Shown: positions 27,371 through 34,932 of the stretch, one piece after another
Layout: the number at the start of each line of letters is the position of its first letter
Numbering within the stretch: position 1 is the first letter of the stretch
Assembly: GCF_002287075.1 (NCBI RefSeq)
Contig: NZ_NSKE01000001.1
Location: 186,001 to 250,000 of the forward strand
Origin: Fodinibius salipaludis
GTDB lineage: Bacteria; Bacteroidota; Rhodothermia; Balneolales; Balneolaceae
Reading direction: 5' to 3'
Length of the DNA stretch: 64,000 nucleotides
Notes under the pieces: model-generated
Told to the model about the DNA's origin: nothing
The model's database searches: none
Seen by the model: the letters and a program-made list of their open reading frames with translations, nothing else
Program-made: the position numbers and the translations under genes

Positions 27371-28243
27371 CTATTTATAAAAACCATAATACTCGGCTAC
27401 TTCATTATAATTTGAAGTATTCAAATCGTTATATATCGTGGCATTATTTCCTGATCGCTTAGAGCGGTCTTCAGTTGAGCTAGTTTCGATACGAACAACC
27501 TCAAGCCCACTGTATTCATCTCCGTTTCCATCTGTGAGCTCAACGATAATACGTATCCCACTTCCATTCCACTCATGACTAATTGCATAACGATTGTACG
27601 TACCAGCACCCCCAGATATCTCTCCTGGCAAATGATGGTAAGTACCAATATTGTCTATCACATAAACCAACCAAATATTTTCTCTCATCTCGCTTGCACT
27701 TTCTACAATACCATTTGTATTCAATATATAACGGTAATCCTGTTCAAAATTGTGTCCCGGAAAGATATACCGTGTCACATTCGCATTGCCATCAGCCCCT
27801 TTCAAATTCAGCGGACTCCCCCATCCGGTGCTGGTTTTCGGCCCATACAGCTCATAGCTGTCTTTATCCAGATAATAATCCCCTTCAACTCCCAGGGAAG
27901 CATCCGGCGCCCCAGTGCCCGAATAAATCTGGCTGCCATCTTCACCATCTTGTCCGTCTTCGCCCATCAATATAATAATCGGATTGCCCCAACCATTGCT
28001 GTCTTTCAGACCATAATATTCTCCGGTGTTGGAATTCAGGTAATAATCGCCCTCGTTACCAATATCTGCAGTTGGGGCGTCCGGTCCGGCATACATAACA
28101 CTCCCGTCTTCACCTGCGGGTCCAATTGGCCCTGCTTCTCCCTGCGGGCCTTGAGGTCCTTCTGATCCGGAGGGGCCTTCGCAGGCTAATGCAATTAGAC
28201 TTACCAAAAGAATACTTAATACGATTCGACTTATTTTATACAT
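27371..28243 (-). CDS. Collagen-like repeat lipoprotein A
   Basis: 290 residues. Lipobox LIALAC with lipidated Cys21, then a run of Gly-X-Y triplets (about 22-48), then two copies of a ~50-residue module with EGDYYL...YG.K...GWG.P (about 50-105 and 110-165), separated by a second Gly-Asp rich triplet tract. Residues about 166-275 form a distinct domain, and the protein ends NEVAEYYGFYK. Modules of this kind occur on surface proteins of Bacteroidota; the function is unknown, probably a surface fibre or adhesin-like protein. It has its own ECF-type promoter (28290-28318) and terminator (27312-27335). The first ~165 residues are nearly identical to the paralogue upstream. Confidence 0.82.
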   Translation of the reverse strand: MYKISRIVLSILLVSLIALACEGPSGSEGPQGPQGEAGPIGPAGEDGSVMYAGPDAPTADIGNEGDYYLNSNTGEYYGLKDSNGWGNPIIILMGEDGQDGEDGSQIYSGTGAPDASLGVEGDYYLDKDSYELYGPKTSTGWGSPLNLKGADGNANVTRYIFPGHNFEQDYRYILNTNGIVESASEMRENIWLVYVIDNIGTYHHLPGEISGGAGTYNRYAISHEWNGSGIRIIVELTDGNGDEYSGLEVVRIETSSTEDRSKRSGNNATIYNDLNTSNYNEVAEYYGFYK

Positions 28244-28289: not shown

Positions 28290-28318
28290 TACGACAGAAA
28301 AAAGTCAAAAAGCTCAAA
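28290..28318 (-). promoter_or_regulatory. ECF-type promoter of collagen-like gene A
   Basis: Read on the minus strand: TTTGAGCT (28318-28311), 17 bases, CGTA (28293-28290), 47 bases before the ATG. The same two boxes with exactly 17 bases between precede the genes starting at 29278 and 31451. The -35/-10 form and CGTA -10 core resemble ECF sigma promoters. Confidence 0.72.
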
Positions 28319-28325
28319 AAAAATA

Positions 28326-28351
28326 GTGCCACCACAATTAAGTGTTGACAC
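28326..28351 (-). terminator. Terminator of collagen-like gene B
   Basis: On the minus strand GTGTCAACAC-TTAATT-GTGGTGGCAC folds into a 10-pair stem with one mismatch and one G-U pair, followed by TATTTTTTTT. The T tract runs straight into the TTTGAGCT box of the next promoter. Confidence 0.75.
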
Positions 28352-28396
28352 CAACAGCTATATCTACCCTGCTATATTTTATTTTCCAAGGATATT

Positions 28397-29278
28397 TCAT
28401 TTATAGAATCCGTAATACTCGGCTACTTCCGCGTAACTTGATGTATCTAAATAATTGGGCATTATCTTTGCCTGATTGGTATTTATTGTATCATTAGATT
28501 CAATACGTACAATCTCAATCTGGATATATTCTTCACCCGAGCCTTCTGCTGTTACGAAATAAAAACCTACTCGCTCACTGTTATCCATCCAGCTAAAAGA
28601 AAATGCATATTGGGAAAGAGTGCCATATGCGTATCCCGGAATAGAATAATATTGTGGGCCATTATTAGTGTCAAATACCAAGTATGGAAGCCATGCACTT
28701 TGCTTCATCTCCGATTCGCTTTCTAAGCCATCAAGAAATCGAAAAACATTATTCATACTACCAAAATTATGACCCGGAAAGATATACCGCGTCACATTCG
28801 CGTTTCCATCAGCCCCTTTCAAATTCAGCGGACTCCCCCATCCACTGCTGGTTTTCGGCCCATATAGTTCATAGCTGTCTTTATCCAGATAATAATCTCC
28901 TTCAACTCCCAGGGAAGCATCAGGGGCTCCGTTGCCCGAATAAATCTGGCTGCCATCCTCCCCATCCTGTCCGTCAGCCCCGTCTTGACCGTCTTCGCCC
29001 ATCAATACAATAATCGGATTGCCCCAACCATTGCTGTCTTTCGGACCATAATATTCTCCGGTGTTGGAATTCAGGTAATAATCGCCCTCGTTACCAATAT
29101 CTTCAGTTGGGGCGTCTGGACCAGCATACATAACACTGCCATCTTCACCGGCCGGACCAATCGGTCCAGCCTCTCCCTGCGGACCTTGAGGCCCTTCTGA
29201 TCCGGAGGGACCTTCGCACGCTAATGCAATTAGACTTACCAAAAGAATACTTAATATGATTCGACTTATTTTATACAT
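28397..29278 (-). CDS. Collagen-like repeat lipoprotein B
   Basis: 293 residues, paralogue of the next gene downstream. Same signal (lipidated Cys21), Gly-X-Y tract, two EGDYYL...GWG modules and C-terminal end AEVAEYYGFYK. It has six extra residues in the second triplet tract (GEDGQDGADGQDGEDGS against GEDGQDGEDGS). Between about residue 168 and 280 the two proteins differ strongly while keeping the same pattern (PGHNF at the start, EIVRIES near the end), so the exposed head domain has diverged faster than both flanks. Own promoter at 29334-29362, own terminator at 28326-28351. Confidence 0.82.
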   Translation of the reverse strand: MYKISRIILSILLVSLIALACEGPSGSEGPQGPQGEAGPIGPAGEDGSVMYAGPDAPTEDIGNEGDYYLNSNTGEYYGPKDSNGWGNPIIVLMGEDGQDGADGQDGEDGSQIYSGNGAPDASLGVEGDYYLDKDSYELYGPKTSSGWGSPLNLKGADGNANVTRYIFPGHNFGSMNNVFRFLDGLESESEMKQSAWLPYLVFDTNNGPQYYSIPGYAYGTLSQYAFSFSWMDNSERVGFYFVTAEGSGEEYIQIEIVRIESNDTINTNQAKIMPNYLDTSSYAEVAEYYGFYK

Positions 29279-29333
29279 AACTCTCCAATTTTTTATTTAG
29301 ATATAATTAGTTGCAGGGGTTTCCATAGGTATC

Positions 29334-29362
29334 TACGAAATGCAGAACAGAATAAGCTCAAA
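29334..29362 (-). promoter_or_regulatory. ECF-type promoter of collagen-like gene B
   Basis: Minus strand: TTTGAGCT (29362-29355), 17 bases, CGTA (29337-29334), 56 bases before the ATG. The spacer and leader differ from those of gene A, although the coding sequences are near-duplicates, so the conserved boxes look selected. Confidence 0.72.
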
Positions 29363-29370
29363 AGAAAAAA

Positions 29371-29395
29371 AGCGAGACGCTCTCAACGTCCCACT
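29371..29395 (-). terminator. Terminator of the PKD/beta-helix lipoprotein gene
   Basis: Minus strand AGTGGGACGT and GCGTCTCGCT pair (with three G-U pairs) around a TGAGA loop, followed by TTTTTTTCTTTT. It starts 38 bases past the stop and ends next to the promoter of collagen-like gene B. Confidence 0.7.
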
Positions 29396-29432
29396 TTTAT
29401 AGGCTATTTGAATGTAAATTCATCCTACTACT

Positions 29433-31451
29433 TTAGTAGGTGTACAAATTGTCATTGTTGTTATCAAAATAGGTAACGTTACTTCCCATATTGAGCTGAG
29501 CGCCCCGGCTTTCTCTGACAATGATGCCATAGTTAGCACTATTCTCAATGGCTGCATTAGATAAATCCAGATATGCGTCACTGTGCACTCCTAAATTCCC
29601 GGAACTCATATAAATATCCAGATCTTTGCCGCCGCCATATTCTATCACTATATGGTCCATTTCATTCTCCAGTGAGCCCGAAGAAATCCATATGCCGCCC
29701 CAAGCACCTTTAGCCTTAGATCGGCCGCTGAACACAATAGGATCATTGGATGTTCCTATCGCTTTAATATGTCCGGGACTGTTTCCACCGGGTACTTTTA
29801 AAACCACATCAGTTCCCATTTCAAAAAGTGCTCCAGCTTCAACAGATACTCCCTTTTCGATAGAGACGGTAGAAGTAAAATAGTAGGTTCCGTTATTCAG
29901 ATTACTCCAAGTCTCAGACCCGGTAGACTCTGTATCTCCTCCATAAACCTCCACATCTCCTCCATTGAAATCAGTTTGATTATCAATGAAATCAACCTGT
30001 GTTGGATGAATACGCATATCGTGATTAGCATTATTTTCGAAATAACTGTTCTCTATGCTAAACTCGGAACCGGAGCGTCGGGTTTGGATTCCATAACCGG
30101 CACTACCCGTAAGAGAAACATTGCGGAGAGTGATTTTAGCATTGTCAATCACCATATTGGTTTTGCCAAAATAGGTGGCCATATTCGTACTTCCGCCGTA
30201 AGTAATATCTACGTGCTCCATAATATTATCTACAGAAGCAGAAACGATTCGTATACCGCGCCATGCCCCTGCAGTTTTACTGGTACCTGTAAATACAATT
30301 TTATTGGATGCTGTTCCGATGGCTTCTATAACAGCACCGTTGCGAACAACAATACCGGCATCAGCCGCAAATTCAAACTCAGCGCCTTCATCAATTGTAA
30401 TATGATGTTCAAAGTCCACATTATTCACGATTTGGTATTTAGCACCGTCAAGAGCTGATACATTCATATCTCCCGTTGTGCCACCGCCGAAGGCTGTCAC
30501 ATATCCACCGTCAAAGGTACTTCCCGCATCTACATAACCTAATTGACTAATATGTATGTAGGCATGATAATTATTATTGTTAGCAAAGGTCATGTTTTGC
30601 ATGGGAAATTCGGACCCGTCCCTTCGGGTTTGGATTCCATGTCCCCCACTCTTGGTGATGGTAACGTTAGCCAGCTGTACTTTGGCCTGATCAATTGTTA
30701 GAGCAGCCGCATCGAAATAGGTTCCGGCAGAAACACTACCAGCATACTCTATAGTAGTATGGCTTATTTCATTCTCTACGGTATTCGAGGAGATAAAAAT
30801 TCCACTCCAGTATCCATTTGATTTTTCTTCTCCTGTTAAAGTAATAGGCTCTTCCTCGGTTCCTGCTGAAACAAGCACTGAGTTATCTGAATTGATATGA
30901 ATGCCGGCATCTGAGGCAAATTCTACCGTTACGCCCGGCTCAATAGTCAATTTAGCACCAGATCTAACATCAATATAGTTTGTTACACGATACAAATTAT
31001 CTGCGGTCCATGTATCATCTTCGGTAATATCTTCAGTAATTACTACAACATCTGATTCTGCAGTTATGGTAACATCATCCTGATCAGATTCACCATTCCC
31101 ATCACTAACCGTTACGGTAGCAACATAATCGCCGGCCACATCGGGCGTAAAAGTGGGACTTTCAGCCTGATCATCAGACAGCTGTGAACTACTTCCAGAC
31201 GGCCCATTCAAACTCCAGACGAAAGAAAGATTATCACCATCGGGATCTGAAGAACTTGACGCATCTAAAGTCACCTGTTGACCTACATCAATAGTTTGCG
31301 CATCTGCATCAGCCACTGCAGTAGGTGCCCCATTGGTTGGCTGATTACTGTTATTCCCGGAATTGTTAGAACTCGAAGGACTGTTGCTGCAAGAACTGAA
31401 TACCATCAATGCTATGATCGATATTCCAAGTAGCGTTCGTATCATCTTCAT
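29433..31451 (-). CDS. PKD-domain and right-handed beta-helix surface lipoprotein
   Basis: 672 residues. Lipobox VFSSC (Cys21), a Ser/Asn-rich linker (about 22-40), a PKD-type Ig domain (about 42-132, with DADAQTIDVGQQVTLDASSSSDPDGD), then three long repeats of about 160 residues (roughly 145-310, 315-475, 480-672). Each repeat has an EPGVTVEFASDAGI-like line, FTGxSKxxGAWxGIxI, a YGGS line and an ENSxxYGI/TRRSGSEF line, the pattern of parallel beta-helix proteins. Predicted to sit on the cell surface and bind or modify polysaccharide, but no catalytic residues can be named. It carries the same ECF-type promoter as the two collagen-like genes. Confidence 0.82.
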   Translation of the reverse strand: MKMIRTLLGISIIALMVFSSCSNSPSSSNNSGNNSNQPTNGAPTAVADADAQTIDVGQQVTLDASSSSDPDGDNLSFVWSLNGPSGSSSQLSDDQAESPTFTPDVAGDYVATVTVSDGNGESDQDDVTITAESDVVVITEDITEDDTWTADNLYRVTNYIDVRSGAKLTIEPGVTVEFASDAGIHINSDNSVLVSAGTEEEPITLTGEEKSNGYWSGIFISSNTVENEISHTTIEYAGSVSAGTYFDAAALTIDQAKVQLANVTITKSGGHGIQTRRDGSEFPMQNMTFANNNNYHAYIHISQLGYVDAGSTFDGGYVTAFGGGTTGDMNVSALDGAKYQIVNNVDFEHHITIDEGAEFEFAADAGIVVRNGAVIEAIGTASNKIVFTGTSKTAGAWRGIRIVSASVDNIMEHVDITYGGSTNMATYFGKTNMVIDNAKITLRNVSLTGSAGYGIQTRRSGSEFSIENSYFENNANHDMRIHPTQVDFIDNQTDFNGGDVEVYGGDTESTGSETWSNLNNGTYYFTSTVSIEKGVSVEAGALFEMGTDVVLKVPGGNSPGHIKAIGTSNDPIVFSGRSKAKGAWGGIWISSGSLENEMDHIVIEYGGGKDLDIYMSSGNLGVHSDAYLDLSNAAIENSANYGIIVRESRGAQLNMGSNVTYFDNNNDNLYTY

Positions 31452-31521
31452 AAGTCGTATATTTTTAATTAACAGTTTTTTTTAAGCTATTCATCGGGAA
31501 TAATCCCCGCTACTAATGGAA

Positions 31522-31550
31522 TACGCAGTCAACAAGTAAAAGAGCTCAAA
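31522..31550 (-). promoter_or_regulatory. ECF-type promoter of the PKD/beta-helix lipoprotein gene
   Basis: Minus strand: TTTGAGCT (31550-31543), 17 bases, CGTA (31525-31522), 71 bases before the ATG. The gene is unrelated to the two collagen-like genes, so the shared boxes are not explained by gene duplication. It lies in the 244-base divergent gap facing the sigma factor gene. Confidence 0.72.
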
Positions 31551-31695: not shown

Positions 31696-32313
31696 ATGCC
31701 GTTAGGCACGATTAACAAATATACTACAGACAAAATGGGTACCGGTTCAAAAGTTACACAGCTACTTGTTCGTCTTAGGGAAGGTGAAGAAGGCGTATTT
31801 GACAAAATTTATCCTCTTATCTACCAGAAATTACATCAGATGGCCCACTCTCATATGGTCCGGCAAAGCCCTGATCATACACTGTCCAAAACAGAACTGG
31901 TGCATGAGGCCTACCTCAAAATGATTGACCAAACCCAGATTGAGTTCAACGATAAATCTCACTTTTTGGCAATTGCATCGCGATGTATGCGACAAATTCT
32001 TATTGACCATGCAAGAAAAAAACACGCCCAAAAGCGGGGTGGCCAAGATAAAGATCTGACCTATATTGATGGCATCCTGAATGCTCAAAAACAAAAAGCG
32101 GAAGAATTTATAAATATTGACGAAGCGTTAAAGGAACTGGAAACACTAAATGAGAGGCTCGTCAGAGTTGTTGAAATGCGTTTTTTTGGAGAGATGACTA
32201 TTGCTGAAACGGCCAGTGCTCTTGACATTTCTGAAAGTACCGTAAAGAGAGATTGGATGAAGGCACGGGGATGGCTTTATAAAAAGTTAAAGCAAAGATT
32301 TGAAGTAGAGTAA
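31696..32313 (+). CDS. ECF RNA polymerase sigma factor of the kinase-linked (ECF43/sig-70_X6-like) type
   Basis: 205 residues. Region 2 runs from about 20 to 100 and region 4 from about 148 to 200 (VVEMRFFGEMTIAETASALDISESTVKRDW, an HTH). Where most ECF factors have the acidic DAED motif that contacts the core enzyme, this one reads LSKTELVHEAYLKM (residues 63-76). Loss of that charge is a trait of ECF43 proteins, and in Vibrio EcfP a threonine in this region is phosphorylated by the neighbouring kinase PknT to restore activity; Thr66 is a candidate here by inference. No anti-sigma gene adjoins it. A kinase gene follows 99 bases downstream. Met14 (31735) is an alternative start. Confidence 0.9.
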   Translation: MPLGTINKYTTDKMGTGSKVTQLLVRLREGEEGVFDKIYPLIYQKLHQMAHSHMVRQSPDHTLSKTELVHEAYLKMIDQTQIEFNDKSHFLAIASRCMRQILIDHARKKHAQKRGGQDKDLTYIDGILNAQKQKAEEFINIDEALKELETLNERLVRVVEMRFFGEMTIAETASALDISESTVKRDWMKARGWLYKKLKQRFEVE

Positions 32314-32314
32314 G

Positions 32315-32342
32315 TGAACTGATTCATGCATTACACTTCGTA
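32315..32342 (+). promoter_or_regulatory. Possible variant ECF-type promoter before the kinase gene
   Basis: TGAACT (32315-32320), 18 bases, CGTA (32339-32342), 71 bases before the kinase ATG. Compared with the three lipoprotein promoters it has A for G in the first box and one extra spacer base. TGAACT is closer to the general ECF -35 element. Could indicate autoregulation, or be chance. Confidence 0.3.
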
Positions 32343-32412: not shown

Positions 32413-34932
32413 ATGGATGATCTAAACTGGGATAAAGTAGAAACGATTATTGACGAAGTTTTAAGTCTTCCCGAGGAAAAACGATATACCTATATAGAAG
32501 AAACATGTGGCCATAATCAGCGCTTGAAGGATGAGGTTACACAATTAGTTGAATCAATTTTTGATTCAGAAGGATGGCTGAAAGACCTTAAAGATCATAA
32601 ACATGAATTTTATGATGACGTCTCGGAAGACTTAAAATCTCTTAGTTCCACTCAAGATTTTGTTGGCCAGCAAGTTGGATCCTATACGATCAAGGAAAAA
32701 ATCGGTCAGGGAGGGATGGGACTTATATATTTGGCAGAGCATACGGATGACAATTTCAGTCATCAAGTCGCCATCAAAATTATACGCGACGGTCAGGCTA
32801 CTAAGACAAATATCCAACGATTCCGTAGAGAACAACGCATTTTAGCCAGTCTAAATCATCCAGGTATAGCGCAACTCTATGATGGTGGGATCATAGATAA
32901 AGAAACTCCCTATATCATCATGGAGTACGTTTGTGGAATACCCATTACCAAATACTGCCGCAAACACAACTGTTCAATTGAAAAGCGGATCGACCTATTC
33001 AAACAAGTGTTAGAAGCTGTTCGCTATGCTCATGAAAATTTGGTCATACACAGAGATTTAAAACCCGATAATATTTTAGTTGATGAAAGCGGCCAGATTA
33101 AGATTCTCGACTTTGGAATCTCCAAACTATTAGAGGATGAGCATAATCTTTCTCTTACCAAGACAGGAGCACGGCTTTTGACTCCCAAATATGCAGCTCC
33201 CGAACAGATTAAAGAAACCAATATTACCACCGCCACTGATTTGTATTCACTGGGTGTTATTTTTTATGAACTTTTATCTAATAGGCCACCTTTTGATTTA
33301 GATGATTGCACCACCTATCAAGCCGAACAGATTATATTAAACCAAGCTCCTACCAAGCCCAGCAGCAGATGTTCTGATAACCATTTATCAGAAGCGTTAC
33401 GGGGGGATTTAAATGCGATAGCTTTAAAAGCAATCAGAAAAGAACCTAACCAGCGATACCGGGTAGCAACAGAATTTCTGGAAGATTTGAACAATTATTT
33501 AAAGGGATTGCCAATTTCAGCCCGGACCGATTCTTTTCAATATCGTTCATATAAATTCATAGGACGCCATAAACAAAGTCTAACGGCTGCTGCCTTTATT
33601 TTTATACTGATTATTGGTCTAACCGGATTTTATACCTGGAAAATTGCAGAAGAACGTAACCATGCCCGCGTAGAGGCACAAAAGGCCGAGAATATTTCCA
33701 ACTTCTTGTTAACCCTGTTTGAATCAAGTCATCCGTCAAATTCAGGGCCGGAAGACATCACCGCACGCGAACTCCTACAAGAAGGTCGACAGAAAGCCGA
33801 TCAAATAATAGATGAGGCTATGCAGGCAAATATGCTTTCTGTCATTGGTCAGGCCTATGCCAAACTTGGATATAGAGACAGCGCCCTTACAATTTTAAAC
33901 CAATCCAAAGATTTAATTAAACGTACGCATGGGCAAGAAAGCCTTGAATATGCAACCATTAATTTTGACATAGGCAACACTTATGATGTTTATGCTGATT
34001 TGGCTCTGCCGTTTTATCAAAAATCATATAACATCCGGTCCGAACTGCTTGGCAAAAATCATTTGAGATCAGCAGAATCTTTGCTTCAAATTGGGAAAAC
34101 ACATAATAACCTCGGAAATACCGATTCAGCCCGATATTATCTTGAAAGATCAGAAGATATTATTGCCAAATCTACAACTCCTAATCCCTCAATAGAATTG
34201 GAAGTTGATCAGGAGATAGCACGCCTATACTACTATTCAAAGGACTATCAAAAAGCCGAAGAAGCCTATCTTGAACTGCTTTCACGACCGAAAGATAATC
34301 TCCAAACTGATTCATTAGCTATCAGCCGATGGAATCAAAATCTGGCATGGGTCTATATCCGGCAGCAACAGTTTGATAAAGCCGTGCCCTATCTGGAAAA
34401 GGCCCTGTTAATTACAGAATCACTTTTAGGAAAAGGACATGAAAAAACCCTGAAGGCGAGAAATGATTTAGCAGGCGTTAACAGCGATCTTGGTAACTTG
34501 GAAAGATTTCAAAGTTTAAGCGAAGAGAACATTGAGTATACTATTGAACAATACGGTAATACACATAAAATGACCTGCCAGGCAAATTCTGCCTATGGCC
34601 TGCAGCTAACACTCTACAAGATCTTTGATAAAGGAGAAAAATATTTGCGTCAAGCCCTCGAAATTTGTTCCAGTGCCATGGGCAGCAACCATATTTGGAC
34701 TGCTTTTGCAAATGCAGCGCTATCTGCCAACCTTGAGTTCAACAATAAACCCGAGGCTTCTCTTAAATATTTTAACGAGGGCCAAAAAATATTTAAAAAT
34801 AACTCAGCCAAGCTCAACAGAGTTAATAAACGTCAGATTTCTATTCTGTTGAGATTATATAATGAAGTTGACCCATCAAGTAAAGATAGAATAGAAAGCT
34901 ATTCAAACTTGCTTGCAGAAGATGATTCCTAA
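32413..34932 (+). CDS. Transmembrane Hanks-type Ser/Thr protein kinase with TPR sensor domain
   Basis: 839 residues. A helical N-terminal segment (1-80) common to this subfamily is followed by a complete kinase domain (about 91-365): Gly-rich loop GQGGMG, Lys122 in VAIKII, HRDLKPDN with Asp215, DFG with Asp233, and APE. One transmembrane helix (about 391-409) leads to a long TPR region (about 430-830), with tetratricopeptide pairs such as EEAYLELL and AVPYLEKALLITESLLGKGHEKT. By this layout the TPR domain lies outside the inner membrane and may sense a ligand while the kinase acts inside. Its gene position makes the ECF sigma factor the natural substrate (inference). Confidence 0.92.
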   Translation: MDDLNWDKVETIIDEVLSLPEEKRYTYIEETCGHNQRLKDEVTQLVESIFDSEGWLKDLKDHKHEFYDDVSEDLKSLSSTQDFVGQQVGSYTIKEKIGQGGMGLIYLAEHTDDNFSHQVAIKIIRDGQATKTNIQRFRREQRILASLNHPGIAQLYDGGIIDKETPYIIMEYVCGIPITKYCRKHNCSIEKRIDLFKQVLEAVRYAHENLVIHRDLKPDNILVDESGQIKILDFGISKLLEDEHNLSLTKTGARLLTPKYAAPEQIKETNITTATDLYSLGVIFYELLSNRPPFDLDDCTTYQAEQIILNQAPTKPSSRCSDNHLSEALRGDLNAIALKAIRKEPNQRYRVATEFLEDLNNYLKGLPISARTDSFQYRSYKFIGRHKQSLTAAAFIFILIIGLTGFYTWKIAEERNHARVEAQKAENISNFLLTLFESSHPSNSGPEDITARELLQEGRQKADQIIDEAMQANMLSVIGQAYAKLGYRDSALTILNQSKDLIKRTHGQESLEYATINFDIGNTYDVYADLALPFYQKSYNIRSELLGKNHLRSAESLLQIGKTHNNLGNTDSARYYLERSEDIIAKSTTPNPSIELEVDQEIARLYYYSKDYQKAEEAYLELLSRPKDNLQTDSLAISRWNQNLAWVYIRQQQFDKAVPYLEKALLITESLLGKGHEKTLKARNDLAGVNSDLGNLERFQSLSEENIEYTIEQYGNTHKMTCQANSAYGLQLTLYKIFDKGEKYLRQALEICSSAMGSNHIWTAFANAALSANLEFNNKPEASLKYFNEGQKIFKNNSAKLNRVNKRQISILLRLYNEVDPSSKDRIESYSNLLAEDDS

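Follow-up and report, generated by a model that had tools for sequence, protein, structure and literature searches.

Three lipoprotein genes in a 64-kb stretch of the Fodinibius salipaludis genome (64,000 nucleotides, referred to below as the window) are each preceded by the same pair of short boxes, TTTGAGCT and CGTA, set 17 bases apart. The question raised by this locus is what the pair is for, and whether the ECF sigma factor encoded beside one of its copies drives these genes as a local regulon, as the initial annotation had proposed. Comparison with related genomes makes it very probable that the motif, in the extended form TTTGAGCY-N-WTTT-N12-CGTAT, is the -35/-10 promoter of this sigma factor (31735–32313) and of its Balneolaceae orthologs, that the sigma factor is activated by a transmembrane kinase, and that its targets are the kinase gene together with divergent and dispersed lipoprotein genes.

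Three copies of the motif in the window

TTTGAGCT-N17-CGTA was found exactly three times when the whole window was searched, always on the minus strand and at the positions reported earlier; no copies were obtained in 100 dinucleotide shuffles of the window, and the gaps hold no additional exact copy, as had been claimed. The putative promoter at 31522–31550 (TTTGAGCTCTTTTACTTGTTGACTGCGTA) lies 70 bases before the ATG of a minus-strand gene for a 672-aa lipoprotein with a PKD/Ig-like domain and repeats (29433–31451), and is divergent to the sigma gene. That at 29334–29362 lies 55 bases before the gene for collagen-like lipoprotein 1 (28397–29278, minus strand; 293 aa, lipobox Cys21, GPxG repeats), and that at 28290–28318 lies 46 bases before its tandem duplicate, collagen-like lipoprotein 2 (27371–28243, minus strand; 290 aa). 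The distances of 71, 56 and 47 bases given previously are correct if counted to the first base of the ATG, but are one too many as intervening bases. All three sites are ECF-type and belong to class A as defined below. The first recurs with equal position and motif in the orthologous module of G004 (L023/L086); the second is kept in G004 and appears with N18 in G002.

The collagen-like genes being tandem duplicates of each other (73% identical), the three sites are not fully independent cases. The recurrence might be due to chance or to one promoter having been duplicated with its gene. This explanation has next to no probability: the third gene is unrelated to the others, as previously stated (BLASTP E 0.17), the spacers of the three sites are not alike, and in ten congeneric genomes the motif is found again in front of unrelated genes. 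With only two or three independent instances in the window, our verdict is drawn from the relatives.

Statistics for the motif within the F. salipaludis genome itself are pattern searches. A fourth exact copy (C37:247446) lies within a coding region and lacks the T element described below. A strict search with TTTGAGCN-N14..20-CGTA returned 21 genome matches versus 9 for the reversed control and was abandoned as too noisy, making it necessary to use the extended motif and to consider where each match lies relative to genes. Further candidate sites, all before lipoproteins, are TGTGAGCT (C37:49739), TTTGATCT (C37:138282), TTTGACCC (C23:231556) and TTTGACCT, the last with CGCA (C35:182113).

The sigma factor and the adjoining kinase

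The sigma gene is listed as an open reading frame at 31696–32313 on the plus strand (TIGR02999 Sig-70_X6; PF07638), and its product scores 201.9 bits against TIGR02999, above the curated cut-off of 126.15. Alignment to orthologs indicates that translation likely starts at Met14 (31735) and not at 31696. Region 2.2 reads SKTELVHEAY, and its threonine (Thr66 in open reading frame numbering) is kept in all 70 sigma factors compared; the recognition helix is ISESTVKRDWM. Orthologs were found in Fodinibius (Aliifodinibius), Gracilimonas, Balneola and Rhodohalobacter. Cultured species that carry the module include Fodinibius sediminis, F. roseus, F. salsisoli and F. halophilus. A PDB sequence search with the sigma factor as query gave no match, and a literature search on sigma factors in Fodinibius returned nothing.

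Adjoining the sigma gene on the same strand is a gene for a Hanks-type Ser/Thr kinase (32413–34932; PF00069). The protein is composed of an N-terminal helical domain (residues ~1–60), the kinase domain (91–350) and C-terminal TPRs, with one predicted transmembrane helix at about 390–408.

Conserved box pairs on either side of the sigma gene

Autoregulated ECF genes carry a promoter before the sigma gene or operon. No such promoter was present on the sigma gene's own strand upstream in 22 of the 24 orthologous modules, and the box pairs found on that strand in the other two lie inside a lipoprotein gene. The box pair is placed instead between sigma and kinase. In the window, a predicted kinase-gene promoter, TGAACT-N18-CGTA (32315–32342, plus strand), begins directly past the sigma stop codon and ends 70 bases before the kinase ATG; it is a variant (TGAACT, N18) and not the exact motif. 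A TGANC-N18..20-CGTA pair directly 3' of the sigma stop codon, with CGTA about 25 bases past the stop, was retained in 17/24 orthologous modules, compared with 0/46 paralogous sigma genes (Fisher p 4e-11) and a mean of 0.02 in shuffled sequence. The sigma gene's own TGA stop codon contributes to the -35 box in G011 and G057. The pair is absent from G005, G007:C40, G032 and G070, and it is not shown by clade 1b, a five-member group nested near clade 1, the clade of the window's sigma factor.

On the other side, a box pair facing away from the sigma gene within about 310 bases of its start was seen in 16/24 modules. Retention varies with the gene that it faces: where the divergent gene encodes a lipoprotein the pair is present in 10/10 modules, versus 6/14 for other divergent genes (p 0.004). 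The latter include homologs of leuS, agmatine deiminase and N-carbamoylputrescine amidase, predicted and named from N-terminal sequences. The motif is thus conserved at orthologous genes beside the sigma gene, as expected from the initial annotation.

A probable dispersed regulon in genomes that carry the sigma ortholog

Across ten congeneric genomes with the sigma ortholog, TTTGAGCY-N17-CGTA occurs 38 times versus 4 for the reversed pattern (3.8 vs 0.4 per genome). Two genus members lacking the ortholog gave 1 versus 3; other family members possessing it gave 25 versus 14, and 61 family members lacking it 39 versus 55 (0.64 vs 0.90 per genome). The motif is therefore enriched in members of the genus that have the sigma factor, and not in genomes without it, which is the pattern anticipated for a link between the two.

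Eight of the 38 exact copies lie inside genes, as chance predicts. The remaining 30 precede a start codon, the median distance being 56.5 bases and most starts lying 37–81 bases away. By eye, 24 of these precede lipoprotein genes (collagen-like, Ig/PKD, propeller-like, CarboxypepD_reg), one precedes the kinase gene and five precede genes for other exported or membrane proteins. Of these five, one encodes an OMP beta-barrel protein, another a protein with a signal peptide, and three belong to a single membrane family of 341 aa. The proposal that the neighbouring sigma factor drives a local regulon is hence supported with regard to the sigma factor, but the regulon appears to be dispersed rather than only local and to include the kinase gene.

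Alignment of 35 sites revealed an additional conserved T element behind the first box and showed that CGTA is followed by a further T, giving the full form TTTGAGCY-N-WTTT-N12-CGTAT with 17 bases between the 8-base box and CGTA. The first box starts with TTTG and so recalls the housekeeping promoter of Bacteroidota (TTTG at -33, TAnnTTTG at -7), which might have been conserved here by accident. This was rejected as exceedingly improbable: the 35 sites show no TAnnTTTG consensus, the second box being CGTAT, and the motif numbers only about 4 copies per genome and is tied to one sigma clade.

Two short boxes at fixed spacing could also form an operator, in which case the motif would be a transcription factor binding site and not a sigma promoter. 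The inverted repeat in the promoter spacer of the CGDDSTGP lipoprotein described below, seen in some relatives, would fit. We regard this as very unlikely in view of the ECF-like anatomy (-35 and -10 boxes, N17 with N18 variants, a CGTA core, 37–81 bases before most starts), the covariation of the motif with sigma paralog clade and its conserved place at the sigma factor's own kinase gene. The preferred assignment remains an ECF promoter.

One target could be followed throughout the genus. The lipoprotein with the sequence CGDDSTGP is present in 12/12 congeneric genomes, and the ten members with a resolved upstream region carry two boxes with identical spacing about 100 bases before the lipid-anchored Cys. 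The boxes read TTTGAGCY-CGTA in four genomes, TGTGAGCT-CGTA in the genome of the window and weaker TGANC variants elsewhere. G008 has no sigma ortholog, yet carries TTGATCC-N17-CGTA at the orthologous gene, and this is the chief caution against attributing all sites to the one sigma factor. In several species (L283, L285, L288, and L284 from F. salipaludis itself, C37:49480) the spacer contains an inverted repeat, e.g. TTTGTGA..TCACAAA, possibly an overlapping operator.

A sister sigma clade paired with a different motif

Paralogous sigma factors served as an internal control. Upstream regions of collagen-like lipoprotein genes, picked irrespective of motif, fell into two classes, A (TTTGANCY/CGTA) and B (TTTGTCCY/CGCA). 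Of 32 class B pairs (TTTGTCCY-N17-CGCA) examined within the genus and G077, 15 have a clade-2 sigma gene no more than 15 kb away, versus 0.65% expected. Class B sites near clade-2 sigma genes precede paralogous collagen-like lipoproteins (L147, L133, L109, L122). The recognition helices of clade 1 (ISESTVKRDWM) and clade 2 (ISERTVKRDWA) differ at two positions, S181/R and M188/A. Clades 1 and 2 are separate in the tree, though five rows of a related subgroup sit inside the wider clade-1 fork.

It is possible, though we consider it rather less likely than recognition by clade 1, that the motif serves all the paralogous ECF sigma factors of these bacteria that are linked to kinases, with mixed readers of which the neighbouring sigma is one of several. 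Related pairs of the form TTTGNNCY-N17-CGYA do stand beside several sigma clades, GATC/GACC variants occur inside clade-2 clusters, and some class A sites are located in clusters of clade-2 or other sigma factors (G003:C78, G010, G001:C1, G007:C4). These sites, together with the variant kept in G008 without clade 1, suggest that other paralogs may read the motif and that some sites of the regulon may be shared. However, the exact AG/CGTA form tracks the presence of clade 1 from genome to genome and is located at the kinase gene of that clade, whereas clade 2, with its different recognition helix, pairs with TC/CGCA. At the level of sequence comparison, the motif, its placement, its conservation and its link to the clade-1 sigma factor are thus established.

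The N-terminal domain of the kinase

The kinases paired with these sigma factors have in common an N-terminal helical domain of ~60 residues with no Pfam match, and kinases with this domain follow most sigma factors of the family. Its predicted fold consists of four helices (mean pLDDT 76), and comparison of this fold with the PDB gave no meaningful match. Several genomes also encode free-standing copies of 60–70 aa; those corresponding to 32413–32592 of the window were located at L043, L045, L090, L122, L147, L168, L183 and L187. Most are preceded by TTTGGCC/TTTGACC-N17-CGCA or class A-like putative promoters, the former being found at the five copies that lie beside clade-2 lipoprotein clusters. 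In G060 (L045/L097) and G057 (L043/L098) the clade-1 sigma gene is followed by a gene for the lone domain, and in G060 no kinase open reading frame follows the sigma gene.

We tentatively suggest that the domain could be a sigma-docking module and that its free copies could be regulon-encoded decoys or anti-sigma factors exerting negative feedback. The two-base -35 code (AG, TC, GC) might then insulate paralogous kinase-sigma circuits over paralogous sets of collagen-like lipoproteins. This speculative proposal is clearly less secure than the promoter assignment.

Proposed mechanism

Direct recognition of the motif, phosphorylation, signal sensing and the direction of feedback are inferred. 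The kinase would probably sense a signal by means of its TPR portion, which would lie outside the membrane, and phosphorylate the sigma factor, most likely at the region 2.2 threonine, upon which the sigma factor would bind core RNA polymerase. The holoenzyme would transcribe the kinase gene, resulting in positive feedback, as well as the divergent lipoprotein gene and the dispersed genes whose products are surface lipoproteins, collagen-like ones among them. The order from signal to kinase to phosphorylated sigma factor to lipoproteins and more kinase is deduced from ECF43 sigma factors, which are phosphorylated at the equivalent threonine. The motif first seen at three lipoprotein genes thus seems to identify the genes under a kinase-controlled switch that alters the cell surface.

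Such a switch suggests how surface lipoproteins of Balneolaceae are turned on. The analysis provides a promoter that can be tested, a list of targets and two naturally occurring paralogous sigma factors with different promoter codes, in which the two differing recognition-helix positions are candidate specificity residues. Such kinases may recognize their sigma factor through the small shared domain.

Comparison with known systems

Kinase-activated ECF sigma factors are numerous. Our literature search for their targets found only two proteobacterial examples and none for Balneolaceae. Both belong to ECF43, EcfK/PknS of Xanthomonas citri and EcfP/PknT of Vibrio parahaemolyticus. In these sigma factors the acidic motif is missing and the equivalent threonine is phosphorylated by the adjacent kinase, at Thr51 within QATE in EcfK, with STTA as the EcfP counterpart (PMC13147305, PMC8999054). 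Thr66 of the present sigma factor aligns with both. As in ECF43, the ECF gene lies beside a gene for a membrane Ser/Thr kinase, the canonical acidic DxxD/DAED of region 2.2 is replaced and the threonine is conserved, the likeness being one of gene order and region 2.2 residues. The acidic residue after the threonine is also kept, in SKTE here and in QATE of EcfK. A Thr51Ala mutant of EcfK is still functional, so sites other than this one may be relevant. The ECF43 examples differ in coming from another phylum and in their targets, T6SS or polymyxin resistance as opposed to surface lipoproteins. A further difference is that the predicted feedback promoter is placed here at the kinase gene and not at the sigma gene.

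With canonical ECF promoters (AAC at -35, CGT at -10; PMC8103513) the motif shares the CGTA -10 core and the 16–17-base type of spacing, within the canonical range of 16–18 bases. It departs from them at -35, where TTTGANCY has a GAGC/GANC core and precedes the WTTT element; the exact motif has AGC, and AAC is confined to variants, for example TGAACT in the putative kinase promoter. The locus thus presents a kinase-coupled ECF system with a non-canonical -35 box and feedback predicted at the kinase gene. As with EcfG1/EcfG2-type systems (PMC8103513), paralogous ECF sigma factors in one genome have distinct promoter sequences; unlike them, the paralogs here are coupled to kinases, with no anti-sigma factor or PhyR, and stand beside paralogous lipoprotein sets.
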